From a virus, in the IMG/VR virus record IMGVR_UViG_3300029268_000144, positions 1 through 22,765 of that record: a stretch of 22,765 bases of DNA. One strand, 5' to 3'. Positions 4,519 to 20,872 of the stretch are shown piece by piece (the stretch's first letter is position 1; each line of letters begins with the position of its first letter). Under the pieces are notes generated by a model. That model did not search any database and was not told the DNA's origin. It saw only the letters and a list, made by a program, of their open reading frames with translations. Position numbers and translations under genes: made by a program.

Positions 4519-4556
4519 TAAATGTGTGGATTTTTAGGAAGGGGTGAATGAGAGCG

Positions 4557-4628
4557 TATACTATAAAGATTAATATTTTTGTTGTAAATACTTATGATTA
4601 TGGTATTATATATGGAATAGGAGATTTT
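4557..4628 (+). promoter_or_regulatory. Leader of plus-strand island 1
   Basis: TATACT at 4557-4562 is a possible -10. It is followed by TAAAGATTAATATTTTT (4564-4580), GTAAATACT (4584-4592) and AATAGGAGA (4616-4624). The last contains the ribosome binding site for the ATG at 4629. The same three blocks recur in the same order at 17418-17467 ahead of the PhoH gene. The short arms TATTT and AAATA could also form a weak hairpin. Confidence 0.55.
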
Positions 4629-4892
4629 ATGAACAATTCAAAGAAGTTACAAGACGATGCAGCTAAACATAGAGGGTTTGTTTCAAGCGCAGAACAGGCT
4701 TGGCTTGAGGAGTCTGATTACGAACGCCTTCAAAGTATTATAAACACTACATCTAAGCAAATTGCTGAAAATATGATTAAGGCTTTTAATACTTTCGACA
4801 TAGGTAGAAGCTGCCCACACAAAGAAACCGTTAAAAAATACGTACTTACAAGCCATTACTACGTCTGTAAAGCTTGTGGGGAGGAAGTATGA
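4629..4892 (+). CDS. Small protein with zinc-finger-like C-terminus, 87 aa
   Basis: Not a recognised family. I start at the ATG at 4629 (MNNSKKLQDDAAK) because AGGAG lies five to six bases upstream. An upstream in-frame ATG at 4548 would turn the leader and its conserved blocks into protein and has a poorer context. The N-terminal 60 residues are helical and charged. The C-terminus has C-x-H-x15-C-x2-C (CPH ... YYVCKACGEEV), a plausible zinc-binding finger that is closely matched by the C-terminus of the next gene. Its stop overlaps the next ATG in an ATGA junction, indicating coupled translation. It may be a small regulatory or host-interaction factor. Confidence 0.7.
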   Translation: MNNSKKLQDDAAKHRGFVSSAEQAWLEESDYERLQSIINTTSKQIAENMIKAFNTFDIGRSCPHKETVKKYVLTSHYYVCKACGEEV

Positions 4893-5404
4893 AAGTAAGC
4901 GCTTTACGTAAGTTACTGGATTTACTAGGTAATGAAGATGCTGAGGTTTATATTGATAACCTAGAGGTTGAGTATTTTGACGCTTGGCAAAGCTCGGTAA
5001 GTGAAGTTAGTTTTGGTCAAAGAAAATACGTTCATCCTAAATATTTAAAAGTAGCCGGTAGACCTTGCCAAGAAACAAAAGGAAGTAGAGAGGCTTTGGT
5101 ACTATATGTCAAATCAAAAGAAAATTATGAAGAAGAACTTCTTAGACAGTTTGAAGAAATGCTTGGAGAAGGCGGAGTCGATTTCTCCGACGACGAGGAA
5201 GAAGATTTTGGCTTCTACTATCCTCCTTCTAATACCGGGGTCCATCCCTATCGCTCTTTTGATATTGACGATGAGGAACCGCCGCCAGTCCCAAAAGAAA
5301 CTAAAAGAATCAATAGATTCTGTAGACACCCAAATAAAATAAAGAAGTGGTTAATAACTAGTTTTTATTACTATTGCCCTGACTGTAAGAATGAGGTTGA
5401 ATGA
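4889..5404 (+). CDS. Acidic protein with zinc-finger-like C-terminus, 171 aa
   Basis: Not assigned to a named family. The start is the ATG at 4889, with GGAGG just upstream; a TTG at 4874 is possible but overlaps the previous gene more. The N-terminus (MKVSALRKLLDLLGNEDAEVYIDNLEV) resembles a common opening of small phage and bacterial proteins. A very acidic segment (FSDDEEEDFGF and later DIDDEEPPPVP) with a proline run lies at about 100-135. The last 28 residues (C-x-H, then WLITSFYYYC-x2-C) repeat the finger of the preceding gene at about half identity. The stop overlaps the endonuclease start as ATGA. The acidic stretch could mimic DNA, but that is speculative. Confidence 0.7.
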   Translation: MKVSALRKLLDLLGNEDAEVYIDNLEVEYFDAWQSSVSEVSFGQRKYVHPKYLKVAGRPCQETKGSREALVLYVKSKENYEEELLRQFEEMLGEGGVDFSDDEEEDFGFYYPPSNTGVHPYRSFDIDDEEPPPVPKETKRINRFCRHPNKIKKWLITSFYYYCPDCKNEVE

Positions 5405-6060
5405 AAAATAATACCTATTATATATACAGATGGGTTAGATTGGATAAAAACACTCCTTTTTATATAGGAAAGGGAACTGGTAAAAGAGCTTTTAGAGTTA
5501 AAGGAAAGAGAAATCAATATTTTACAAATATAGTAAATAAAATCAATTGTAAGTGTCAGATACTTATTGATAATTTAACAGAAGAAGAAGCTTTTCAAAA
5601 AGAAAAGCAATTAATTAAATTATATAAAACTTACGGTTATTGTGAGGCTAACCTAACTCTTGGTGGTGAGGGAGCTAGTGGATTAAAACACTCCCCAGAG
5701 ACAATATCTAAAAGAGTTGCAAGTATGAGGAGGGTTGGTAGAAAACCTACTTCCCAAGAAGCTCGTTTAAATCATTCTAAATGGCAAATAGGTAGAAAGT
5801 TATCCGATACACATAGAGCTAATATGAGTAAGGCTGGTATAGGTAGAAAAGTTTCCTTAGAAACTAGATTAAAGAGGTCGAAAAAAGTTTGCATAAAAAA
5901 TATTTTTACGCATGAGATTGTTTTATTTAATTCAGTGAGTGAGTTTAAAGAAAAAACCGGCATTAGTAGAGATATATACCAAAGACTCGTATCTAATAAA
6001 ATCAAAACACCAAAAAATAAAGAGCTTAAGGAGTTTTTAAATCAATGGGTAATAATATAA
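5401..6060 (+). CDS. GIY-YIG homing endonuclease with NUMOD3-type repeats
   Basis: Free-standing mobile endonuclease of 219 aa. The catalytic GIY-YIG domain spans about residues 5-90: YIY (7-9), FYIGKG (20-25), Arg in GKRAFR (29-32), acidic EEE within LTEEEAF (59-65) and Asn84 in NLTLGG. From about 95 to 163 there are three or four NUMOD3-like DNA-binding units (HSPETISKRVASMRR, KLSDTHRANMSKAGIGRK, VSLETRLKRSKK). A C-terminal helix-turn-helix segment follows (SVSEFKEKTGISRDIYQRL). Such enzymes cut an allele lacking them and spread by repair. It is locked into the operon by a 4-nt overlap upstream and a 16-nt overlap downstream. No interrupted exon or intron boundary is seen. Confidence 0.9.
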   Translation: MKNNTYYIYRWVRLDKNTPFYIGKGTGKRAFRVKGKRNQYFTNIVNKINCKCQILIDNLTEEEAFQKEKQLIKLYKTYGYCEANLTLGGEGASGLKHSPETISKRVASMRRVGRKPTSQEARLNHSKWQIGRKLSDTHRANMSKAGIGRKVSLETRLKRSKKVCIKNIFTHEIVLFNSVSEFKEKTGISRDIYQRLVSNKIKTPKNKELKEFLNQWVII

Positions 6061-8370: not shown

Positions 8371-11300
8371 TTATTCCGTCTTAGCTACAATAATGTCGTT
8401 TACGATATCGATAATTAAGGCTTTCTCCGTAGCTGCTACAGCGATAATGTCATTTGCCGCATCGTAAGCTGGAGAGCTAATAGCTACTGCACTTACACCC
8501 GGAATTGAGTTTACTGTAGAAACAATATCACTGATAGCGATTGGCTCTCCAATTCCTGTAGAGTTGATTAAAGCAGCTACGTTATTCCTAACTTGTTCAA
8601 CAACTCTTGTAAATGGAATACCAGTTCTGATTCTTACGTTAATAGAAACTTTAATTCTCTTAAACAGAGGCGGTTTAATAAAGATTTCAGCACCAGCAGC
8701 GGCTACGCCCGGATAAGTAATATTATCCCTTGGGTCTCCGTAAACAACTTTATTAGCTTGAGCGATTAATCCTGTATCATATCTGTATGAATCTAATCCT
8801 CTGCGATTTATCTCAGAAAAGCCAAGCTTACCCAGACCGGAAATAGTTGAAACAGCGACATCATTTACTTTAGAAGATTGATTATTACTATCAAAAATCA
8901 TTAAGTATCTATTACTATTAGCCGGGTCTACAATCAAGTTATGTATTTTCTTGTAGCCTACATAAGCCTTTTCTTCTTCAACGTATATCTGAGTAAAATT
9001 AGAAGTCAAAGCTACGCTATTTTGGATAGCTAATAATTCATCTATTACAACTCTACTTTCATCTAAAACTTCAACGATAGTATACGTTCCTTTATTAGCT
9101 GAAGTAAGTACGTTTCCTGATATTACCAGACTATCACCAGCGTTTGTATTTTCGTATGGGCTAATAACCATAGAAGGATTGTGCGCTTTAAATACATTTC
9201 CTCCTACTCCTGTTACAGATATACCAGCTTCAGAGGTAGCGACTGAATTAGCACATTCTACAAAGGCTAAAGAGCCTTGCTGTGTAATAACTATTTCACA
9301 AGCCTCTACGTCGATATTTTGAGCATCTACACATGGTCCATAATTATCAAATTCTACAGTTACAGTATCTCCTAGAACAGTAGCTGTTACTCCAGATAAA
9401 GCATTTAAAGCTGACTGAATAATGAGAGCCATAGCTGAAGAGGTTTCAGAACCTGTAAAATCGAATTGAACACTAGTTCTAGCTATAGGAGTAGGGTCTA
9501 CTGATGTATTATTTAAATCAAACCATCCGTAATAAGCAGTACCAAGATTTGGTAGGTCAAAATGAATTCTCTCCCCACCTTGGATATCCGCCGCTGCCGG
9601 TGCGACAATTGTGAAGGATTCTTTCATTGCTTTATTTGATTTAGTAACCATGAAAGAGCCTTGATTCAATGAATTGAAGGCTGTACCAATAGTTAATATA
9701 TCACCAAGCTTAGCATTTTGTAATGTAGGTTGAGTACCAGTTCCATTCCAAGTAATTCTCATATTGCCAGGAACTGTTACATCGAATTGGGTAGTAGCGT
9801 CAAATCCTAGAGACCTTAAATTTTCTGATACTACAACTCTTTCTTCAACAGCAACTTCATTATCTATATAGAAACTATTAGCAAACTGCTTAATAATTCT
9901 AAATTTACCTTGATTTAAACTAGTGAAAGGACTTCCGATTTGGACGGTATCTCCTTCTTGCAGATTAGTAATTACGCTAATATTAGCCGATAGTACTGGA
10001 GCGGCGGCGGCATCAACTCCCGCTGAATTGTCCACTACTATAGTTTTCTTATCTTCGGAAGTTCCAACAACATTAAAAGTACCATTGTTAGATACATCAG
10101 CCAAGGTAGATACGGTGAATTTATCTCCTACCTGAACTTCTGAGAAATTCCTAGAACCTGAAGTCGATGTATAAGACGTTAACCCTAAAGAACCATCAAA
10201 ATCAACGGAAATATTTCCATTGCTGGTATTAATCTGTACATTTTTTGTAAAAAGAGGGTTTGAGCCTGTCTGACCATCCCAAGAAATACATACTAATTTA
10301 CCATGTTTTTCTACATGGAAAGCACGACCGATATCTCTTACGGCGTTTCTAGGTTGACCGAAAAGCCTATCATGATTATCCTTGTTTCCGATTTCCAGTA
10401 CTGTTTTTCCTGATACAATAGTATTGGGATGTACGGTAACGTTTGACGTAAAGCTGACTCCAGATTCTTTCTTTTGTACGCTTTCGGCAGATACCTTAAC
10501 TAGCTGACCTGTCTGGAATCCAGAAGAAGCCGAACGTAGAATAGATACTTTCATTAATTCAGTTCCAAGCATAGGTATAGCTTGATTGATTACTTTAGCG
10601 ATTGCATTATTTGCAGTACCGCCTGTAATCTGAATAGCTCCACCAGAACCTAGAACGTTTGTAGATATTTGTAGTTTTCCATTTCTATAAGAAGTACTGA
10701 TATCAGAAAGAGTAGTAGCTCCAGAAACAGCTAAGGTAGAGATTAGGTCATCAATTTGCTTTGATGTTGTAGGGATGAATCTTACCTCTTCACCGTTGTT
10801 AAAAGAATACGCATTTGCAGTATTGGTACTGAAACTAGCTAATTGCAATGTATTCTTAAATCCAAATTGAGGAACTGGTGAAGCCGCTGCCAATGAGGAG
10901 AATTCTAGGTAATTAATACCATCTACTAAAGAAATACTTTCTTGACCTGAGGCAAAGTTATTATCTTCATAAGTTGAAGATAGGATAACTCCAGCTCCAG
11001 ACAATCCAGCATCATTCAATAGAGTAGCTGTAATAAAGTCAGCAAGGTTAGCTGTAACATAAGTTACAATTTCCTGAGCTGTAGTTGCGCTATTTTGATA
11101 CAGAAGAACAGTAGTTAGTGTCAAGTTAGCTATGTTGTTTTCAGCAACAGCTACTCCGCTTGGTCTACGTACCGTAAAAGATGTTGAGGTAGCGCTAGAT
11201 ACTTTAAAAGTACCTTGGTTTCCAGCAGAGAACTCTCCGTTAGAATTAATCGTTACGTAGTTTCCTGCTGTTAGAGATGTCATGGTTGGGTTTGAACCAG

Positions 11301-14300
11301 TTCCATTCCAAGTGTAACTAACTTCATCTACGCCAGCTACAGGAGTATTGGGTGTAATAGTAACGCCCCACTCGGTAGTTCCATCAATTTGATTTGTAAC
11401 TGGAGCGCCTGATTTAAGAGCGATAGAGATATCTACTTCATTTCCTACAACAATAGTATGGGAGACAGGAAGATTTGCCGCAGTAGGATAAGAATATCCT
11501 ATATTGAATTTTTCTCCAGAAGCTCCCCATAAAGAAGACCTGAATAAAATAGCGTCTTCATTGGCTCCTGTGTTAGGGTCTATGACATTTTTAGCTTTCA
11601 TTAAAGCTTTGTAATTGGAAAAATCGTAAGTAGACCCAAAATATGTCTCAAATTCAGAAGTAACGCCTGAATCAACATCGTAAGCTCTAAAATCATTAGA
11701 GTTTATAGGCATAGTAGCGTTAGTTATAGCTCTACGGTAAAGAGGGATAGAAAAAGTTTTACTAGTAGGGTCTTCATCTAAGACTAAAGTAAGCCCATCA
11801 CTTGCACCAAAATTAAATGTACTAGCTACGTAATATCTGTCCGATTGTCTAAGTCTTTTTACGAACTGACTAGGTTTGATATTAACAGTCAACGCTGCAA
11901 GAGATTGAATTTGAGCAAACTCACCGTCTGCTTGAGCGTCTTCTACTTGCACTCCAGACGTTAGGTACGGATGTATAAATCCGATAAGCTCGTTAGAGGA
12001 GATTGATTGCAAAGCCAAATCTAAGGCTGAAGCAAAATCTGCGATGGATGTGTCTGGTGGGTCTGATTGTTTATTGTTAGTAATTGAACTATGTACAAAT
12101 AAAGGGAAGTCTCCGTCAGCATTAGCACTTTCATAAAATGCAAAATGCGAATCTATAGATGTTCCTAAATCACCTTCAGTAAAATTTAAGTTTTTTCCTG
12201 AGTCATTAAATGTTACAATCAATACTGAGCCGTAAAGGTCTGCGCTCTTACTTGTAATTAGTATGATTTCATCATCTAAAGTAGACGCCGTTACTCCAAC
12301 CAAACTATCTTGGATTGAGTTTGAGATTGCATTAATGTTGTAAGTACCTGCTGTAAACTTAATTTTTTGAGGAGGTTGGGAAGTTCTTAAAAACACTATC
12401 CCTTCTGAAAAAGATACTAGCACTTGAGGTACTGCTGCTGCAAATTCAATAGGAGTTACTTTCAAATCAAAAGTAGAGTTTGTTTTAGCGTTAACCCTTC
12501 CTTCTATTCTATTATTAGCATTAAGCTCATTAGACCATACGATAACGTAATCACCAACTTCAACGTTTGTGAAAGCTGTAACTACGTTAGATGTAAATCT
12601 GACTACGTTAGTAGCTGGCTTAGATACTGAGATTAGGGTATTAGAAACAGCTCCAGTAGTAATAATTTCAGCAGCTTGGTTATCTATTAAAAACCACAAA
12701 TACGCATCAGTAGCAAAGCTAACAGTTCCGCCAAGAATTTTATCACTAGATACGCTGGCGTTACTAAACTCTGTTCCAGCCGTTAAATTATCTCCGGCTA
12801 CTAACGGCGTTGATAGTTTAAATTGAGCGGTATTTCTCGATAAAGTAAAGTCGGATTCAGCTCCAGAAGCAGACAACCCGATAGTTGTAGTAAATACGCC
12901 TTTAGTAACAAGAGTAGAGGAAATATCAATTTGCAAAGAAGCTCTAGAGCTTACGCCAAGATTCGATGTTAAAACAATTCTACTTCCGTTAATTGAAGCT
13001 GTTACGCCTGTAACTTTAGAATTTATTACATTAATCCAAGATTGTAAGCTATTTGATTTAGATATGGAAGGGTAAGTTCCCTCCGAAATAAAATCAGAAT
13101 TTGTGAAAGAATAAGTGATTGCGTCTGTTCCATCTACTGAAATGATTAAAGTGTCGCCAGTTGAAATAGCATTTGACCACTCGGATTGAGTAGCTGATTC
13201 TAATAGAGCTTTTTTACCGTTTCTACTTAAAGGAATTCTATTTTTATATAATCTTAATGTTTGGACTTCGCTTGAAGTCAAACCCATTGAAGTTCCAGCA
13301 TTACCACCAGTGGTAGTATCTGTAACTTCAAGATACTCATCATCTTCTGATTTAGCTTCAAGAGTAACTCTTTTTCCGGTATTTGAAGTTCTAGCTACAA
13401 AAGTTAAATCAGGATTAGCGTTAATTGAAGCCGCAACTTCGTATGCCGTAGCAAATCCATTGGAGCGGAAATCACCTTCAGAGAATGTATGTTCGCTCAG
13501 CACACTCCCTACCAAGATAGCTAATCTATCGTTCGGTTGGATGCTGAATGGAGAATCAATTGAAGATTCTAAATAAGCTTTAGTTACTGATGTTTGTGTT
13601 CCGCCGGTAGCTAATTGAAAGCGCTCTTCTCCGCCAATCGCAGAATCTACGATGTATTCTAATCCTACGCCTTTATTTTTTTGCTCATAGCCTTCGCCAT
13701 TATCAATATAAAGAATTGCAGAGTCAGTATCGGAAAAGATTTCGTTAGATGCTACACGAGCATTTTCATCAGTTGCTTGGATACCTAATGTAGAGTTCTT
13801 AATTGCTAAAGCAGTTCCTAAGCCTTTAGAAATCCTAGCTCTTTTAATTTTAGCTCTGATTTCTTCGTCAGTTTCTGCGTTACGACCTGTTGATAAAGGT
13901 TGGTCGTTAAATACTGTAGCTCCAGTAAAAGGAAGGGAGCCGAAAGATTTGATTGAGTTACGTGGAACGTTACTATCAGTACCCGGAGATTCAGCAGCAA
14001 TAGCCACTCCAGTAATTTGATTTTCACCATCTAAAATGATAGCGCTTGAGGTTGTTTTAAAATTTACATCAGGTGCTCCACCAGCGGTTGGAGACTTAAC
14101 GATAGTTCCAGCGGGGATATTACGTACTCCACCTTGAGCTAGTATTATACTTTCCGATATGTTATGAAATTTAGTTGTAGCTACTGTTAGGTTAATTTCC
14201 CAGTATCCACCGACTTGAGTAATTGATGTATAGGCTAATGGACCTTCAGAATTTGGAGTTCCACGACCAATATAAATAGAACCAGTAGGAGAAAATAGAG

Positions 14301-14676
14301 ATGCATCAGAAGCTTTAATTACAGTAGAACCTACGTTAGGAGCTGTAGCTCCTGCATATACTTTAGTTGAAATCTTCTCAAAACTAGAATCTTTAATGAC
14401 TACTTTACCAGTAGCAACACGAGCTGGTTCTAATTTAATATTTTCAGCGGAAGCGATTTTCTTAAGGGCTTCGCCAGTTGCTCTATCTACGTCATTATCT
14501 CTAAGAATTGAGAAAGCGTCACCTTGAGCACGAAAAACGGCTTGAGCCATTGTTTCAAAGAAAGAAGAAACAGCCGAACCTACCGTTAAATCATTTATTC
14601 CGATTTTAGCCATGTAAGATGCTGTTATCTCACCGAGAATTTGCTCATACGATTTTGGATTTGGAGTTTGACTCAT
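8371..14676 (-). CDS. Giant baseplate J/gp6-like wedge protein, 2101 aa
   Basis: The N-terminal ~330 residues have the baseplate J pattern: ATGEALKKIASAENI, PAGTIV, then ITGVAIAAESPGTDSNVPRN, and ETDEEIRAKIKRARISKGLGTALA. The last ~125 residues (FKRIKVSINVRIRTGIPFTRVVEQVRNNV... IGEPIAISDIVSTVNSIPGVSAVAIS) match the J C-terminal region. Between them about 1,600 residues of repeated beta modules are inserted, including WNGTGxxPT...GDxxxIxxxFxSLNQGxFxV units near residues 1118, 1573 and 1638. J and gp6 usually have a few hundred residues, so this protein is greatly expanded. In T4, gp6 forms the inner baseplate ring with gp7, gp25 and gp53. The start has AGGA at spacing eight and an extended -10 box. 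Confidence 0.88.
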   Translation of the reverse strand: MSQTPNPKSYEQILGEITASYMAKIGINDLTVGSAVSSFFETMAQAVFRAQGDAFSILRDNDVDRATGEALKKIASAENIKLEPARVATGKVVIKDSSFEKISTKVYAGATAPNVGSTVIKASDASLFSPTGSIYIGRGTPNSEGPLAYTSITQVGGYWEINLTVATTKFHNISESIILAQGGVRNIPAGTIVKSPTAGGAPDVNFKTTSSAIILDGENQITGVAIAAESPGTDSNVPRNSIKSFGSLPFTGATVFNDQPLSTGRNAETDEEIRAKIKRARISKGLGTALAIKNSTLGIQATDENARVASNEIFSDTDSAILYIDNGEGYEQKNKGVGLEYIVDSAIGGEERFQLATGGTQTSVTKAYLESSIDSPFSIQPNDRLAILVGSVLSEHTFSEGDFRSNGFATAYEVAASINANPDLTFVARTSNTGKRVTLEAKSEDDEYLEVTDTTTGGNAGTSMGLTSSEVQTLRLYKNRIPLSRNGKKALLESATQSEWSNAISTGDTLIISVDGTDAITYSFTNSDFISEGTYPSISKSNSLQSWINVINSKVTGVTASINGSRIVLTSNLGVSSRASLQIDISSTLVTKGVFTTTIGLSASGAESDFTLSRNTAQFKLSTPLVAGDNLTAGTEFSNASVSSDKILGGTVSFATDAYLWFLIDNQAAEIITTGAVSNTLISVSKPATNVVRFTSNVVTAFTNVEVGDYVIVWSNELNANNRIEGRVNAKTNSTFDLKVTPIEFAAAVPQVLVSFSEGIVFLRTSQPPQKIKFTAGTYNINAISNSIQDSLVGVTASTLDDEIILITSKSADLYGSVLIVTFNDSGKNLNFTEGDLGTSIDSHFAFYESANADGDFPLFVHSSITNNKQSDPPDTSIADFASALDLALQSISSNELIGFIHPYLTSGVQVEDAQADGEFAQIQSLAALTVNIKPSQFVKRLRQSDRYYVASTFNFGASDGLTLVLDEDPTSKTFSIPLYRRAITNATMPINSNDFRAYDVDSGVTSEFETYFGSTYDFSNYKALMKAKNVIDPNTGANEDAILFRSSLWGASGEKFNIGYSYPTAANLPVSHTIVVGNEVDISIALKSGAPVTNQIDGTTEWGVTITPNTPVAGVDEVSYTWNGTGSNPTMTSLTAGNYVTINSNGEFSAGNQGTFKVSSATSTSFTVRRPSGVAVAENNIANLTLTTVLLYQNSATTAQEIVTYVTANLADFITATLLNDAGLSGAGVILSSTYEDNNFASGQESISLVDGINYLEFSSLAAASPVPQFGFKNTLQLASFSTNTANAYSFNNGEEVRFIPTTSKQIDDLISTLAVSGATTLSDISTSYRNGKLQISTNVLGSGGAIQITGGTANNAIAKVINQAIPMLGTELMKVSILRSASSGFQTGQLVKVSAESVQKKESGVSFTSNVTVHPNTIVSGKTVLEIGNKDNHDRLFGQPRNAVRDIGRAFHVEKHGKLVCISWDGQTGSNPLFTKNVQINTSNGNISVDFDGSLGLTSYTSTSGSRNFSEVQVGDKFTVSTLADVSNNGTFNVVGTSEDKKTIVVDNSAGVDAAAAPVLSANISVITNLQEGDTVQIGSPFTSLNQGKFRIIKQFANSFYIDNEVAVEERVVVSENLRSLGFDATTQFDVTVPGNMRITWNGTGTQPTLQNAKLGDILTIGTAFNSLNQGSFMVTKSNKAMKESFTIVAPAAADIQGGERIHFDLPNLGTAYYGWFDLNNTSVDPTPIARTSVQFDFTGSETSSAMALIIQSALNALSGVTATVLGDTVTVEFDNYGPCVDAQNIDVEACEIVITQQGSLAFVECANSVATSEAGISVTGVGGNVFKAHNPSMVISPYENTNAGDSLVISGNVLTSANKGTYTIVEVLDESRVVIDELLAIQNSVALTSNFTQIYVEEEKAYVGYKKIHNLIVDPANSNRYLMIFDSNNQSSKVNDVAVSTISGLGKLGFSEINRRGLDSYRYDTGLIAQANKVVYGDPRDNITYPGVAAAGAEIFIKPPLFKRIKVSINVRIRTGIPFTRVVEQVRNNVAALINSTGIGEPIAISDIVSTVNSIPGVSAVAISSPAYDAANDIIAVAATEKALIIDIVNDIIVAKTE
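9736..9753 (-). repeat. 18-nt exact repeat in J-like gene, copy 1
   Basis: The plus-strand sequence ACCAGTTCCATTCCAAGT here is identical to 11296-11313. It encodes the TWNGTG core of a repeated beta module, so recent duplication or gene conversion between modules is likely. Confidence 0.7.
11296..11313 (-). repeat. 18-nt exact repeat in J-like gene, copy 2
   Basis: Second copy of the element at 9736-9753, in the same reading frame and same position of the module (YTWNGTG). Confidence 0.7.
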
Positions 14677-14706: not shown

Positions 14707-17349
14707 TTAAACATCAAAGCTAATAGGTATCACGCCTGAATTATTAGCTAATATTACTGCCATATCAATCGACATTGTTGGACCGTTAATAGATATCTTA
14801 AGTCTTTCAATACCTGAAAACCTAGAATCTGAAATAACTAAGTTGGTTAATTCCTGAGCAATAGCTCCGCTTTCTACATCTGCTAAAGAAATACCGGGAT
14901 TAATACCTATTCCAAAATCAGGATGTCTCATAAGACTTCCCTTTTTTGTTCTAATTTTGATTTTAAGAGCTTGAACTAAGTTATTAAGTCCGTTAGCAAT
15001 CCTGAAATCACCTACTCCATTAATAGCAATATCGCCGTCATCTGTAAGTAACCAGTCAATTCTTGAAATCTTAGTTAACCTATCGTTATCAAATGCTGGA
15101 GGTAAAACAATTCTATCATCGGCATCTGAAGGAAGACTAGAAGGTATAAAAATCTGGTCTTGACTATTTACAGTTCCCGGTAAGTAACCTATGATTTTAG
15201 CATTTAAAGAAGTTTGTAGATTATCTAAATCAGCCAAACCATCAACTGTTACTAGGTAGTTATTATCACTTATCTTTTCAATATTAGTTATTTTTCTAAC
15301 AAATTGAGGTATTGTATTAGCCGAAAGCATTATCTTCTGACCGATATAAAGCTGCTTTAAGCTGTCATCAACGTTAAACTGTCTTCCTGTAGCGTTAGAA
15401 AGTAGATTGTAAGTAAATCCATCCTCATCGATATATGGAGACCTTAGGTTATTTAAAGTAGCTATTTCAATCCAACGGTCTGTGTTTTTTAAGTATCTAG
15501 CAGAAATTTCTTCAATTGTTAATCCAAAAGGAACTGGTACTAAAAATTTTGAAGTTGAATTCTCGAAAGGAATTCCAGCTTGGTTAGCCATATTACCGAC
15601 ATACTCTAAAGAATTTTCTTTTTTAGAGTCATCGAATAGTTTAGTTGAAGTTAAGATATCAAATGCTTGGATAGCCTCGAACAAAGCCGCCAATATCTCT
15701 GTCTCATCTATCGTCATTGAAGTAGCTCTTTCTTTAGGAGCTGGAAGTCCATAGATATTAGAGTATGTCGCATTACCAGCACCGTAATTATTACTGATAC
15801 TTAGAGCTAGACTTAGGATGTCTTCTCTATAGCCTCTTAAATCATCTTGAGTAATTAAAGTAGCGTTTTGGATTTCATCGTCAATTACAGATTGTTGCTC
15901 TGGAGTTAAAACCAATGAGCTAATATCTACTCCGTCAAATAAATCAAAGTTTTCTTCAGGACTACTAAACACTTCATTAATTGGACTTAAATCTTGCTGT
16001 TGAGCCGCATCATTACCTAAAGCTCCTTCAGCAATAGCTGAGCCGCTAAGACCTTCGTTAATTCCAACCGAATAAGCAATTAAATTAATTGAGTTACCAG
16101 CTTTAGCTTCTAATGTACTAGCTCTCATTGCTGAAGCCGATACGCCTGTAAGGGTTTGACCAGAACTAGAACCTCTAATCTGAGAAGGTCTTTTGAAAGA
16201 ATCTCTAGCGATATATAGTGAGTCTGTAATTGAAGACTTATAGTCATTAATAATAGCTTGAGGCATATCCGCCACAGTATGAACAAATCCACCTAAATCT
16301 TTGACCGCAAGAGCTGCCTGTCTTAGCGAATTTAAAGGCTTTTGAAAGTCAGAACGAACAGCTTTAATTAAATTTACACTAGCGCCAACAGTTCTTCTTG
16401 TTTCTCTAAGAGTATCATTAATTATAGAAAGAATATTAGGTGAGCCAAGGTTTAATGGTATGTTTTTAGCAGGTTCAGCTTGAGCATTTAAATCTATTCT
16501 TTTCCATGCCTTAAGTTGCATAGACCAGATATGTTCGTTTGGCTTTTGAGCTGACTTAGTTAAACTGAACTGAACTGGAGTTACAATATAAGACTGCTTG
16601 TCTTTAGGAACATCTAAAACAAGTCTCCACCCTTTATTATTAGGATTCTTTTTTGCTTGGGCGTATCTTTCAAGAAATTGCGCTAAATATTGAGCTTGAT
16701 AATATCCTGTTTGAGTTAAATCAGAAGGTATTTGTGCGATACCATCACTTCCACCGCCAGAAAAACCCTTAGCCACTCTACTAGCTTGTCCAATTACATT
16801 ACTGAAATTTTCCGCAGTATTATTAAATAAACCACCAAGTATTTGAGGCTGTTTAAAACTCCCACCTGAAACAGGTTTTTGAGACCATATACCTGTCGTG
16901 CCCGACATAGCTATCATTTTGAATTTAATACCGTTATGCTCTTCTACAACACCACGCATGGTAGCATTAGTACTTATAGCGAATTGGTCTGTTACGGAGT
17001 ACTGTTGAGGGGTTATAGGAAAATTGTATATCCAATTACCAGCCACTACTTCTTGAGTAAGTACATAGGCAATACCTTTTTCTGAACTAACCTTACTTTT
17101 AAAACCAAGTCCTCCCGAATCTCCCGGCACTATTTCATTTTCCCTATTTACATCAATAACTACTAAACGATATGGATATAAGCTATTCCAGCGACTTTCT
17201 TCTATCTTCACCATAGGGAAAAAAGCATCTTTAGCAGACGCTATACTAGCCCAAGGTAATTTATTGTGCGATTTAGATGATTCTTCAAGAGCATCATTAA
17301 AAGCACCTATACTTGGAATAAAATCTGGAAATCCGGGGACTAGAGCCAT
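14707..17349 (-). CDS. Baseplate protein with LysM-like segment and C-terminal gp25 domain, 880 aa
   Basis: The N-terminal ~290 residues (IYNFPITPQQYSVTDQFAIS, ATMRGVVEEHNGIKFKMIA, HIWSMQLKAWKRID) form a beta-rich tail domain seen at the front of some phage LysM tail proteins. The region 300-600 is low-complexity helical linker. Residues about 604-676 are LysM-like (VPFGLTIEEISARYLKNTD, RWIEIATLNNLRSPYI, LYIGQKIMLS). Residues about 770-880 match the GPW/gp25 wedge family (GDFRIANGLNNLVQALKIKI, KGSLMRHPDFGIG, DSRFSGIERLKISI). In T4 gp53 (LysM-like) and gp25 are separate wedge proteins, and here they appear fused. It lies immediately upstream of the J/gp6-like gene, matching the known baseplate gene order. 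AAGG precedes the ATG. Confidence 0.82.
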   Translation of the reverse strand: MALVPGFPDFIPSIGAFNDALEESSKSHNKLPWASIASAKDAFFPMVKIEESRWNSLYPYRLVVIDVNRENEIVPGDSGGLGFKSKVSSEKGIAYVLTQEVVAGNWIYNFPITPQQYSVTDQFAISTNATMRGVVEEHNGIKFKMIAMSGTTGIWSQKPVSGGSFKQPQILGGLFNNTAENFSNVIGQASRVAKGFSGGGSDGIAQIPSDLTQTGYYQAQYLAQFLERYAQAKKNPNNKGWRLVLDVPKDKQSYIVTPVQFSLTKSAQKPNEHIWSMQLKAWKRIDLNAQAEPAKNIPLNLGSPNILSIINDTLRETRRTVGASVNLIKAVRSDFQKPLNSLRQAALAVKDLGGFVHTVADMPQAIINDYKSSITDSLYIARDSFKRPSQIRGSSSGQTLTGVSASAMRASTLEAKAGNSINLIAYSVGINEGLSGSAIAEGALGNDAAQQQDLSPINEVFSSPEENFDLFDGVDISSLVLTPEQQSVIDDEIQNATLITQDDLRGYREDILSLALSISNNYGAGNATYSNIYGLPAPKERATSMTIDETEILAALFEAIQAFDILTSTKLFDDSKKENSLEYVGNMANQAGIPFENSTSKFLVPVPFGLTIEEISARYLKNTDRWIEIATLNNLRSPYIDEDGFTYNLLSNATGRQFNVDDSLKQLYIGQKIMLSANTIPQFVRKITNIEKISDNNYLVTVDGLADLDNLQTSLNAKIIGYLPGTVNSQDQIFIPSSLPSDADDRIVLPPAFDNDRLTKISRIDWLLTDDGDIAINGVGDFRIANGLNNLVQALKIKIRTKKGSLMRHPDFGIGINPGISLADVESGAIAQELTNLVISDSRFSGIERLKISINGPTMSIDMAVILANNSGVIPISFDV

Positions 17350-17356
17350 AATAGCC

Positions 17357-17384
17357 TTGATTTATATAAGTGGTGTGGTATAAT
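17357..17384 (+). promoter_or_regulatory. Sigma-70-type promoter for the PhoH island
   Basis: TTGATT (17357-17362), a 16-bp spacer and TATAAT (17379-17384), with TG one base before the -10 box. The flanking TGTGGTATAATA is identical to the minus-strand box before the J-like gene. Transcription would give a leader of roughly 135 nt before the PhoH start. A second TATAAT at 17502-17507, 18 bases before the start codon, is an alternative. Confidence 0.6.
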
Positions 17385-17525: not shown

Positions 17526-18689
17526 TTGGAAAAGAAGTATGTTATTGATACGAACGTGATAGTACAGTACCCTAACAGTATTAATAAGATGGAAGGAATT
17601 GTAGTTTTAACATCAACCGTACTTGGAGAACTCGATAATTTCAAGAAACATAATGATGAGAGAGCTAGGAATGTACGTAATTTTACTAGACTTTTGACTA
17701 AAATAGATGAAGATAAAGTTGAGTTTTATGACGATGAAACGGACTTTGAACAAAAGCCGTACCCTCAAAATAACGACCACAAAATCATTTCAGCAGCCCT
17801 AGACCTAGAGGCTGTTCTGGTCACTAACGACATTCTAATGAAATACAGAGCTGAGTCCTACGGATTGGAGGTAGAATCCTACCAAGACGATATGGTTCAG
17901 GCTGAGGAGCAATATACCGGCATTGCTCAAGATAGCCCACTTATGGTATCTAATCCCTTCCCTAACCAATATGTCTTCAACCGTTCAGGTAAAATTGAAA
18001 AATTTAACGGAACTGAATTTGTAGGTCTGGGTAAGGATGTAGAAGTATGGGGTCTTAAACATAAGAACCTTGAGCAAAGATGCGCTATCGATGCCTTACT
18101 TGACGACAAAATTAAACTAGTAACTCTGAGCGGTAAGGCAGGTACTGGTAAGACTCTTATTACCCTCGCATGTGCTCTTGAGAAGACTATTACCGACAAC
18201 AAATATAAAAGAATTCTAGTTGCTCGACCTGTAATCCCTATGGGGAATGATATTGGATATCTTCCGGGCGATATTAAAGAAAAACTTGGTCCTTGGATGC
18301 AGCCTATTATGGACAACTTAGACTATCTTTTCAGTAAAGATAAGAACGCCGTAGATGTTTATGAAGAACTTGAGATGAATGGAATTATCAAAATCGAGCC
18401 ACTAACTTACATTAGAGGTCGTTCTATCCCTAACCAATTCATTATTATTGACGAAGCTCAGAACTTAACTAAGCACGAAGTCAAAACTATCATTAGTAGA
18501 GCTGGGGAGGGTACTAAGATTATCCTAACTGGAGACCCTGACCAGATTGATAATACAAAACTTGACTCAGTTAATAATGGATTAAGTTATGTTATTGAAA
18601 AATTTAAAGACCAAAAGATTGCGGCTCATATCACACTTTCAAAAGGTGAGCGTTCTGAGTTAGCAGATATAGCAACAGAGATTTTATGA
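17526..18689 (+). CDS. PhoH2-type protein: PIN ribonuclease domain fused to PhoH ATPase
   Basis: The PIN domain occupies residues about 4-125: Asp8 in VIDTN, Glu35 in LGELD, Asp84 in NNDHK and Asp102 in TND form the usual acidic metal site. The PhoH ATPase domain spans about 170-387. It has Walker A SGKAGTGKT (202-210), RGRS (297-300), Walker B IIIDEAQ (306-312), TGDPDQID (335-342) and a possible arginine finger in SKGERSELA. PhoH2 proteins of this order act as RNA helicases with RNase activity; the activity here is inferred from intact motifs. The start is TTG with AAGGAG at spacing six, and starting at the next ATG would delete Asp8. Its stop overlaps the next gene as ATGA. Confidence 0.92.
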   Translation: MEKKYVIDTNVIVQYPNSINKMEGIVVLTSTVLGELDNFKKHNDERARNVRNFTRLLTKIDEDKVEFYDDETDFEQKPYPQNNDHKIISAALDLEAVLVTNDILMKYRAESYGLEVESYQDDMVQAEEQYTGIAQDSPLMVSNPFPNQYVFNRSGKIEKFNGTEFVGLGKDVEVWGLKHKNLEQRCAIDALLDDKIKLVTLSGKAGTGKTLITLACALEKTITDNKYKRILVARPVIPMGNDIGYLPGDIKEKLGPWMQPIMDNLDYLFSKDKNAVDVYEELEMNGIIKIEPLTYIRGRSIPNQFIIIDEAQNLTKHEVKTIISRAGEGTKIILTGDPDQIDNTKLDSVNNGLSYVIEKFKDQKIAAHITLSKGERSELADIATEIL

Positions 18690-19243
18690 GAACTAATTTG
18701 ACACTATTTTTATTAGGTATTCTGGTAAGCTGTGGTCAGGTTGTTGCTCCTCAATATTCAGATAACAGCAATGGTGAATTTAAACCATATATACAGGACT
18801 TTGTAAATATAGTATCAAATCATAAGTTTAATAAAAAATTAAAAAATACTAACTTTATGTTCGGTGATTTAAATCCATTAAAAGACCCTAATCAATCCGT
18901 AACAACAATAGGTACGTGCTATGGTATGTACCGTGATAAGTCTATAATTGTAATTGATACGGATTACTGGAGTAAAGCCAGCCCTACCTCTAAAGCATTT
19001 ACTATGTATCACGAGATGGGACATTGTATTTGTAATTTACAACATACTCAACCTTCTAATGGTTGGTATAGACCGTTTGAAGAGATTCTATTTAAATTAG
19101 GATTAATTGAAAAGAAAAGCTTTTTAGATGACGGATGTCCGGGTAGTCTTATGCATCCTTCAGATATGAGTGAATTCTGTATGCTTAATAATTATATGTA
19201 TTATATGGATGAGTTGAAAAGGTCATGCAATGAAAATAGATAG
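18686..19243 (+). CDS. Lipoprotein with HExxH zinc-metalloprotease motif, 185 aa
   Basis: The N-terminus MRTNLTLFLLGILVSC is a short lipoprotein signal peptide with lipobox L-V-S-C (Cys16), so the mature protein should be lipid-anchored outside the cytoplasm. Residues 109-113 are HEMGH, the zinc-protease helix, with another His at 120 that may be a third ligand. SLMHP at 154-158 resembles the Met-turn of metzincins, although the His spacing is one residue longer than HExxHxxGxxH. Several cysteines (78, 114, 116, 151, 165, 181) could pair in the periplasm. The start overlaps the PhoH stop (ATGA). It may modify the host envelope, for example for exclusion or lysis; the target is unknown. Confidence 0.8.
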   Translation: MRTNLTLFLLGILVSCGQVVAPQYSDNSNGEFKPYIQDFVNIVSNHKFNKKLKNTNFMFGDLNPLKDPNQSVTTIGTCYGMYRDKSIIVIDTDYWSKASPTSKAFTMYHEMGHCICNLQHTQPSNGWYRPFEEILFKLGLIEKKSFLDDGCPGSLMHPSDMSEFCMLNNYMYYMDELKRSCNENR

Positions 19244-19502
19244 GTACGTAGATAAGATTATGGAAAAATTTGAATATGCTAATGGATATAGCGAACTTAC
19301 CTACGACCAGTTAAAGAAAGTGATTACTAAATATCTAGTAGCGGAGCACGACAAGGAAATTGAAGAGTTGGCATTTCAGATGGAAACAGAAAGACAGAGC
19401 GGTTATACTCCAAATATAGAGCATTATCATCGGGAGTACGATTTAATAAAAGATAAAGTTATTCAAAAAGCTCTTGATTTAGCTCAAACAGAAAAGCCCT
19501 AA
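19230..19502 (+). CDS. Small helical acidic protein, 90 aa
   Basis: Not recognised. The ATG lies inside the end of the protease gene (14-nt overlap), with AAGG about nine bases upstream. The product is predicted almost entirely helical and charged (DRYVDKIMEKFEYANG, EHDKEIEELAFQMETERQSG, LIKDKVIQKALDLAQ), without cysteines or membrane segment, so it should stay in the cytoplasm. A small phage regulator or adaptor is possible. It closes the second plus-strand island. Its TAA stop shares four bases (CTAA) with the stop of the converging gene. Confidence 0.65.
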   Translation: MKIDRYVDKIMEKFEYANGYSELTYDQLKKVITKYLVAEHDKEIEELAFQMETERQSGYTPNIEHYHREYDLIKDKVIQKALDLAQTEKP

Positions 19503-20872
19503 AGCTCTTTATAAATCCTAGCATTTTCATTTTGGCGGTATTTGGCAGGGATATTAACCGATAGGGTTATAGCATTTCCAGATATAGCTACAATCGTAGC
19601 TGGAATTTCCGCTTGAGTGTCAGATATTACATATACAGAATCAGATACAGAAAATCCAGTAGCGTCTTTTATATGTATGGTAGGTATGCCGGTAGCCGGG
19701 GCTCTAAAAGCCGATACCTTCATTACTGAGCCGTATACTGAAGCTGCATTAACATTTGAATTAACCGCCTCATCCTGAGCCTTTTCACCTAGCTTTAACC
19801 CCTCTACTTTACGAAGAGAACCATTCATTAGATTCAATCTAAGATTTAGAATACTCATTCTATCACCGTAAAAACCAGATGAAGAAGTAATATTACCCGT
19901 AGATAAATCCTGAACTACAGAGCCTAAATTAGTATTTATTTGAGCAGCTCTGGTTGGGATAAACGAAAGCCTAGCCGTAATTTCATTCTTAATAACTAGT
20001 AATTCGCCAGCTCTAAACTTAGTAGCGGATAATAGATTTACATTATAAGAGTTAAATCCAGCACACGTAGTTTGACCGTGAGACGTATCAAAAGTAGCAT
20101 AAGTAAGCCAGATATCAATCTGAGCTATAGCGTTAGCTACGTCAGCAATTGAAGTGTTGTTTTGAGTTTGTCTACCTGTGTCAGTATCAGTAGTTATAAT
20201 AACAGGAGTCGTAGCTTGTAAGAAAGCTTTCCAGTTATTAACTTCTGTAATTAAATTGGTAGCAGTTGTTTGGATGATTAAATTGTTAGATATCGAATCT
20301 GGTCCCGAAGTCCAAGTACCGCCATTTGCAGTACAAGTAAGTTGAGTCGTATAAGCTGGTAAAGAACACGTTCCAGTAGCATTACAGGATTGACCAGTAC
20401 TTCTACCTATAGAGGTGTAAGATTCCATAGTAGTGATTAGAGCGCTTATAGCACTTATAATATCTTGCTCTTTCTGAATTACGGTGTTTGTTTCGTCGTA
20501 TTTCTTACCAACAGCTTTATTCTTAGAATAAGGGATAAAGTTTTTCCATACTCCGCCGGGAAGTGAAGGTGTAGGTACGTTAGTTTGGTTTGGAGAGAAG
20601 AAATTACCCAGAACCATTTGAGCTGAATTTACAACATCCTGCTCTAGAATTTCAGTCCTATCTAATCCATCAATTCGCTTAAGCTCATTCTGATAGCCGT
20701 TAATAAGTACGGTTTTAGCATCCATTAAGTTCTTATTGGCATCGTCTTGCTTCTGAGCTTTAACCTTGGCTTCTTGGAGCTTAGACTTATTGTCAGCAGA
20801 AGCCGCATCCTCTTTAGGGATGTCTACAAGCTTCTTACTAATTGCTATACGGTCATCTTGACTAAGTGCCAT
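19499..20872 (-). CDS. Virion-type structural protein with coiled-coil N-terminus, 457 aa
   Basis: Residues about 1-80 are highly charged and helical (KSKLQEAKVKAQKQDDANKNL), likely coiled coil. Residues 163-187 hold a cysteine motif (CNATGTC...LTCTANGGTW), a CxxxxxC-x10-CxxxGGxW pattern also found in secreted bacterial and phage tail proteins. Two further helical stretches follow. The C-terminal ~60 residues are beta-rich (IPTIHIKDATGFSVSDSVYVIS... AITLSVNIPAKYRQNENARIY) and resemble fiber or adaptor end domains. The start ATG has AGG eight bases upstream. It is separated from the baseplate block by the PhoH island. A tail or baseplate adaptor is inferred; the family is unknown. Confidence 0.7.
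   Translation of the reverse strand: MALSQDDRIAISKKLVDIPKEDAASADNKSKLQEAKVKAQKQDDANKNLMDAKTVLINGYQNELKRIDGLDRTEILEQDVVNSAQMVLGNFFSPNQTNVPTPSLPGGVWKNFIPYSKNKAVGKKYDETNTVIQKEQDIISAISALITTMESYTSIGRSTGQSCNATGTCSLPAYTTQLTCTANGGTWTSGPDSISNNLIIQTTATNLITEVNNWKAFLQATTPVIITTDTDTGRQTQNNTSIADVANAIAQIDIWLTYATFDTSHGQTTCAGFNSYNVNLLSATKFRAGELLVIKNEITARLSFIPTRAAQINTNLGSVVQDLSTGNITSSSGFYGDRMSILNLRLNLMNGSLRKVEGLKLGEKAQDEAVNSNVNAASVYGSVMKVSAFRAPATGIPTIHIKDATGFSVSDSVYVISDTQAEIPATIVAISGNAITLSVNIPAKYRQNENARIYKEL

Follow-up and report, generated by a model that had tools for sequence, protein, structure and literature searches.

To our knowledge, the phage lipoproteins of the host envelope known so far act by binding. 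Llp of phage T5 blocks its receptor in this manner and is associated with superinfection exclusion (PMC9586334). Among peptidases, Mtz of Listeria is a metzincin of phage origin, which sensitises cells to phage lysins (PMC8235301), and a survey of jumbo phages contains passages in which zincins were proposed for host protein cleavage or virion maturation (PMC7824862). The passages found in that survey hold no description of the lipoprotein family with the zinc motif HExxHx6H treated here, and no paper on this family was found in the open-access literature.

In the present study a virus record of IMG/VR with a length of 22,765 bp, hereafter the window, was analyzed with regard to a candidate peptidase gene and its surroundings. 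The following features are referred to throughout:

18686..19243, plus strand: gene of the lipoprotein metzincin-like peptidase (open reading frame, homology, synteny, model)
18686..18733, plus strand: signal peptide with lipobox LVSC (residues 13-16), read from the sequence; codon of Cys16 at 18731-18733
18917..18919, plus strand: Cys78, covarying with Cys114
19010..19045, plus strand: HEMGHCICNLQH, with the presumptive zinc ligands His109, His113 and His120, the general base Glu110 and, inside, Cys114
19130..19159, plus strand: DDGCPGSLMHP region (Asp149, Cys151, Met156), end of a lineage insert and Met-turn-like motif
17526..18689, plus strand: PIN-PhoH gene (Pfam), upstream neighbour, not a conserved partner
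19230..19502, plus strand: 90-aa open reading frame, downstream in the same islet, overlapped by the 3' end of the peptidase gene
14707..17349, minus strand: 880-aa baseplate protein, bait of the synteny test
8371-14676, minus strand: 2101-aa baseplate J-like protein, a tail gene
19499..20872, minus strand: 457-aa protein, function not assigned, which closes the islet in the same phage lineage

The peptidase frame starts with ATG and encodes 185 amino acids. Its N-terminus, MRTNLTLFLLGILVSC, ends at residue 16 and presents a lipobox of the form L-[ASTVI]-[GAS]-C, preceded by a hydrophobic segment; HEMGH occupies residues 109-113, His120 follows as a further presumptive ligand, and SLMHP covers residues 154-158. 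Inspection of the sequence gave coordinates, lipobox, both motifs and His120 as an earlier note had described them, and bore out its remark that the distance from His113 to His120 is one residue longer than in the HExxHxxGxxH of classical metzincins.

Since motif scans had imposed the motif themselves, the 880-aa baseplate gene alone was used as bait for a search independent of it, which led to 80 loci, 72 of them with enough flank to be evaluated. Records of the lineage reach 177 kb. A peptidase homologue was present at the same place, on the strand opposite to the baseplate gene, in 59 of these 72 loci and lacking at the site in the other 13; three phages without a gene at the site carry a homologue elsewhere in the record, and several possess two copies. 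This conserved synteny with baseplate genes could be taken to indicate a virion or assembly peptidase processing tail proteins, in keeping with the maturation role proposed for jumbo-phage zincins in the passages found of that survey (PMC7824862). A signal peptide with a lipobox and covarying cysteines are hardly expected of such an enzyme, however, and the opposite strand, the loci without the gene and the homologues that other phages carry at a distance from their tail genes likewise make this role highly unlikely. Patchy presence and extra copies would rather suit a counter-defence factor degrading an envelope-associated host defence protein, but the position is very stable across most of the lineage, a known defence target is missing and bacterial chromosomes frequently carry members of this family, so that we give counter-defence a poor chance.

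The only isolated phage which matched both large baseplate proteins was Myxococcus phage Mx1. As its protein was the sole match of the 2101-aa protein among isolated phages (36% identity), the window can be assigned to a poorly sampled contractile-tailed lineage. A peptidase homologue was not found in Mx1, where the gene adjoining the baseplate gene is unrelated to the peptidase, and tblastn searches of isolated phages with the window protein and with that of a phage relative (L001) returned no match or weak unrelated ones.

For the study of conservation, 51 distinct syntenic homologues were aligned with the window protein (52 rows); as the aligned proteins are kin, the counts are not to be read as probabilities. 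His109, Glu110, His113 and His120 are invariant in all rows but one, which is cut by the contig end, and Gly112 within the same motif is glycine in just 21 aligned rows. Met156 is kept in 48 of 51 homologues, Asp149 and Cys151 are present in all complete rows, and 42 of 52 rows, when read from stop to stop, have a cysteine aligned with that of the lipobox. Both Cys78 and Cys114 occur in 44 of the 51 homologues and neither occurs in seven, without a single mixed case, the replacements following at least two patterns (Tyr/Ala, Thr/Ala or Ser/Ser). Being kept or lost jointly, these two residues suggest a disulfide and therefore export; Cys151 and Cys165 co-occur as well (50/50). Thus the alignment shows that the predicted export and lipid-anchor signal is conserved and that the presumptive catalytic residues are invariant, as would be expected of an enzyme that is exported, disulfide-bonded and constrained in its active site.

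Homologues lacking the HExxH had been named in the earlier note as a finding that should count against its proposal; all complete syntenic homologues keep this motif, which favours the proposal, and the exception, a degenerate chromosomal relative (L265) that has lost it, lies outside the syntenic set. That relative, along with the receptor block by binding known from T5 Llp (PMC9586334), would be the argument for a binding lipoprotein, in which a metalloprotease fold is retained without enzymatic role. Against the invariance of histidines and glutamate in all complete members of the lineage, with adjoining positions free to vary, this appears extremely improbable. Similarity of the peptidase to the syntenic phage proteins reached E-values down to 8e-28 in blastp and, because presumptive ligands and glutamate are also kept in the 51 homologues, goes far beyond chance. 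The reading frame is a genuine gene on which purifying selection acts (dN/dS of 0.15 in the one usable close pair).

The peptidase gene is part of an islet of three plus-strand genes (17526-19502), and the tail and baseplate genes around it are on the minus strand. It therefore lies outside the tail operon, for which it had been called an unusual cargo. Its orientation opposite to the tail genes and the second copies found elsewhere argue for a host-directed accessory function. One such function would be that of a lysis helper, whereby the anchored peptidase cuts an envelope-stabilising protein late and endolysin and spanins work better; the lipobox would place it suitably in the envelope, and the phage-derived Mtz acts in this direction in Listeria (PMC8235301). 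Yet the gene runs opposite to the structural genes, and a lysis gene was not recognised among the adjoining genes, as far as their partial annotation reaches, and help in lysis is accordingly considered unlikely.

The overlap with PhoH claimed before is real and amounts to 4 nt (ATGA) shared by the PhoH stop and the peptidase start, but the coupling to PhoH derived from it could not be upheld: PhoH adjoins the peptidase in only four of the 59 loci, and in four of the eight loci with PhoH the peptidase is missing at the site. The overlap is ordinary gene packing, and a functional link is not supported. The 90-aa reading frame was rejected as an obligate partner or inhibitor in the same manner, the peptidase being absent at the site in four of its ten loci. 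Upstream of PhoH, TTGATT-16-TATAAT at 17357-17384 is a candidate promoter only, and the promoter scan was not above shuffles (12 found vs 13.5 expected).

Some further reading frames were observed in the window and its relatives. Two on the plus strand (4548-4892 and 4889-5404), for which a Pfam match was not found, have similar C-terminal tails of a CxxC zinc-ribbon-like type, KYVLTSHYYVCKACGEEV and KWLITSFYYYCPDCKNEV, and frames of about 50 aa with a cysteine pattern like these tails lie between PhoH and peptidase in L153, L191 and L209. A 219-aa frame among the tail genes (5401-6060, plus strand) resembles by eye a GIY-YIG homing endonuclease (YYIYRW...FYIGKGTGKRAF) and also has repeated DNA-binding-like segments; it gave no Pfam match at E 1.

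Beyond the lineage, the family was defined here by a lipobox, a cysteine pair of the Cys78/Cys114 type, HExxHx6H, S-x-M and Y-x-x-E-L near the end. The window protein has all of these and is thus a member of a lipoprotein family of phages, Bdellovibrionota and Bacteroidota; L001 displays the same layout, with HEMGHCVLFRVH and SSIMYP. A motif scan with one genome per species gave at least 120 matches, and those listed stem mostly from Saprospiraceae and other Bacteroidota, in addition to Bdellovibrionales/Oligoflexia and a few Gammaproteobacteria; the bacterial matches share HExGHC-x5-H, S-I/L-M and a Y-L-x-E-L-F tail, and most have a lipobox. More than 110 family proteins were detected in a motif scan of viral contigs. 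Since the search pattern itself made it inevitable, the complete conservation in these motif-based sets was left out of the evidence. In the phylum to which a Bdellovibrionales record (L004) belongs, 75 of 192 genomes were matched in a profile search, 50 of them at E <1e-14. As HExxHx6H is the norm of a large family, it is no peculiarity of this phage, and the longer spacing, which the earlier note had thought might be a new variant, proved to be the standard form. This family is large, conserved and essentially undescribed, and Pfam and NCBIfam models give it no adequate cover; the window protein alone had no Pfam match above cut-off and no NCBIfam match. Three distant relatives in Bdellovibrionota-type genomes (L271, L275 and L276) combine the classical spacing with the family cysteine (HELGHCAGMEH) and may represent evolutionary intermediates that link the HExxHx6H form to classical metzincins.

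Single members deserve mention on their own account. A plasmid of 161 kb from Bdellovibrio sp. HM001 encodes one of them (L358:11725-12339), which is annotated as hypothetical and carries a lipobox and HELGHCNLWRDH. An environmental phage protein of 330 aa, annotated as 'neutrophil collagenase' (L359:3572-4564), contains HEMGHAALARPH with the family spacing; it has no Cys pair and, by eye, no signal peptide, in line with a link between the Cys pair and export. Several phage loci which carry the peptidase also contain a ClpP-like protein with what looks like a signal peptide (MKFLVIFLLTISTCFA), found in L241:6664-7404 and relatives (8 viral loci), a hint that protease export by such phages is not confined to a single enzyme.

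Structure prediction with AlphaFold2 and a 98-sequence alignment gave a model of the window protein with pLDDT 85.8 and pTM 0.77. The best 50 rows of VIA-align were all catalytic domains of matrix metalloproteases or snapalysin, the best one with Z 9.2 and rmsd 3.2 over 116 residues. A second model, of a bacterial relative and from another alignment, reached pLDDT 90.4 and aligned best with MMP-11 (Z 10.1, rmsd 2.8, 116 residues). Both models thus agree with the catalytic-domain fold of metzincins, although a Z near 9 is modest. Foldseek alone, at E <= 0.001, found no PDB match for either model, and two uncharacterised phage proteins in a viral library; chains of anthrax lethal factor (TM ~0.24-0.29, rmsd 12-20 A) were set aside as generic resemblance. 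Among PDB sequences, a search with the single protein yielded nothing meaningful, and the family profile placed snake-venom metzincins on top at a weak, not significant E of 0.12, in an alignment that inserts one residue on the way from HELGH to the third histidine.

Taken together, it seems rather probable to us that the gene encodes a lipid-anchored, metzincin-like zinc endopeptidase, which is made in the infected cell and sent to the host envelope. The zinc protease already proposed in the earlier note, exported and lipid-anchored and bearing a Met-turn-like motif, is well supported as far as can be inferred from family conservation, synteny, cysteine covariation and the model; the non-classical spacing of the third ligand, the modest Z and the 10 of 52 rows without lipobox cysteine are points against it. 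The peptidase would be exported by Sec, then lipidated and cleaved at Cys16, and in the periplasm would form the disulfides Cys78-Cys114 and, probably, Cys151-Cys165. Zinc would be bound by His109, His113 and His120, Glu110 would serve as the general base and Met156 would provide the Met-turn, and the anchored enzyme would most likely cut a protein of the host envelope. Of its purposes, removal of a receptor or envelope protein is ranked as most likely, before help in lysis, counter-defence and a role in the virion; that the purpose lies in disabling a surface or periplasmic protein, for instance a receptor in superinfection exclusion, is put forward tentatively and falls clearly short of probable. 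The broadest version, in which many phages have adopted an undescribed, large clade of envelope-anchored metzincin-like peptidases, their third zinc ligand shifted and their fold stabilised by a disulfide, to remove host surface proteins proteolytically for superinfection exclusion or counter-defence, has to be called rather doubtful. A widespread family of tethered phage proteases, if borne out, would add host-envelope proteolysis to the phage toolbox and offer a testable role for proteins of which predatory Bdellovibrionota, and likewise Bacteroidota, have many, and the invariant HExxHx6H with its covarying Cys pair would mean that the zinc-site geometry accepted for metzincin-like enzymes has to be drawn more widely.

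With respect to known systems, the metzincins of MA(M) (matrix metalloproteases, snapalysin, adamalysins) share with the window protein the HExxH helix with catalytic glutamate, a third histidine, the Met-turn-like S-x-M and the overall fold. They differ from it in the spacing, HEMGHCICNLQH having its third histidine at +7 and lacking the glycine of the HExxHxxGxxH turn, as well as in the additional Cys pair, the lipid anchor and the encoding by a phage. PhageMetallopep (PF18894) shows weak similarity to 71 of 98 family members in the region of the HExxH helix; just some relatives pass the gathering cut-off of 23.7, and the window protein scores 19.4. The zinc-dependent metalloproteinase lipoprotein metzin_BF0631 (TIGR03952) is, by its name, a lipoprotein metzincin too, but only one of the 98 members matches it (E 4e-4), and the window protein does not. 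Since it deviates from the zinc motif HExxHxxGxxH/D and stays below the nearest Pfam cut-off, and has a methionine after the third ligand and the predicted fold, the window protein is best regarded as metzincin-like rather than a metzincin proper. T5 Llp is likewise a small phage-encoded lipoprotein of the host envelope, but unlike the candidate peptidase it acts by binding and is not described as a peptidase (PMC9586334). The Mtz-Tim pair of Listeria resembles the present case in that a metzincin derived from a phage is exported and acts on the envelope of the bacterium; Mtz is SPI-secreted, shows the classical motif and is paired with a lipoprotein (PMC8235301), whereas here no partner is conserved and the peptidase itself bears the lipobox.
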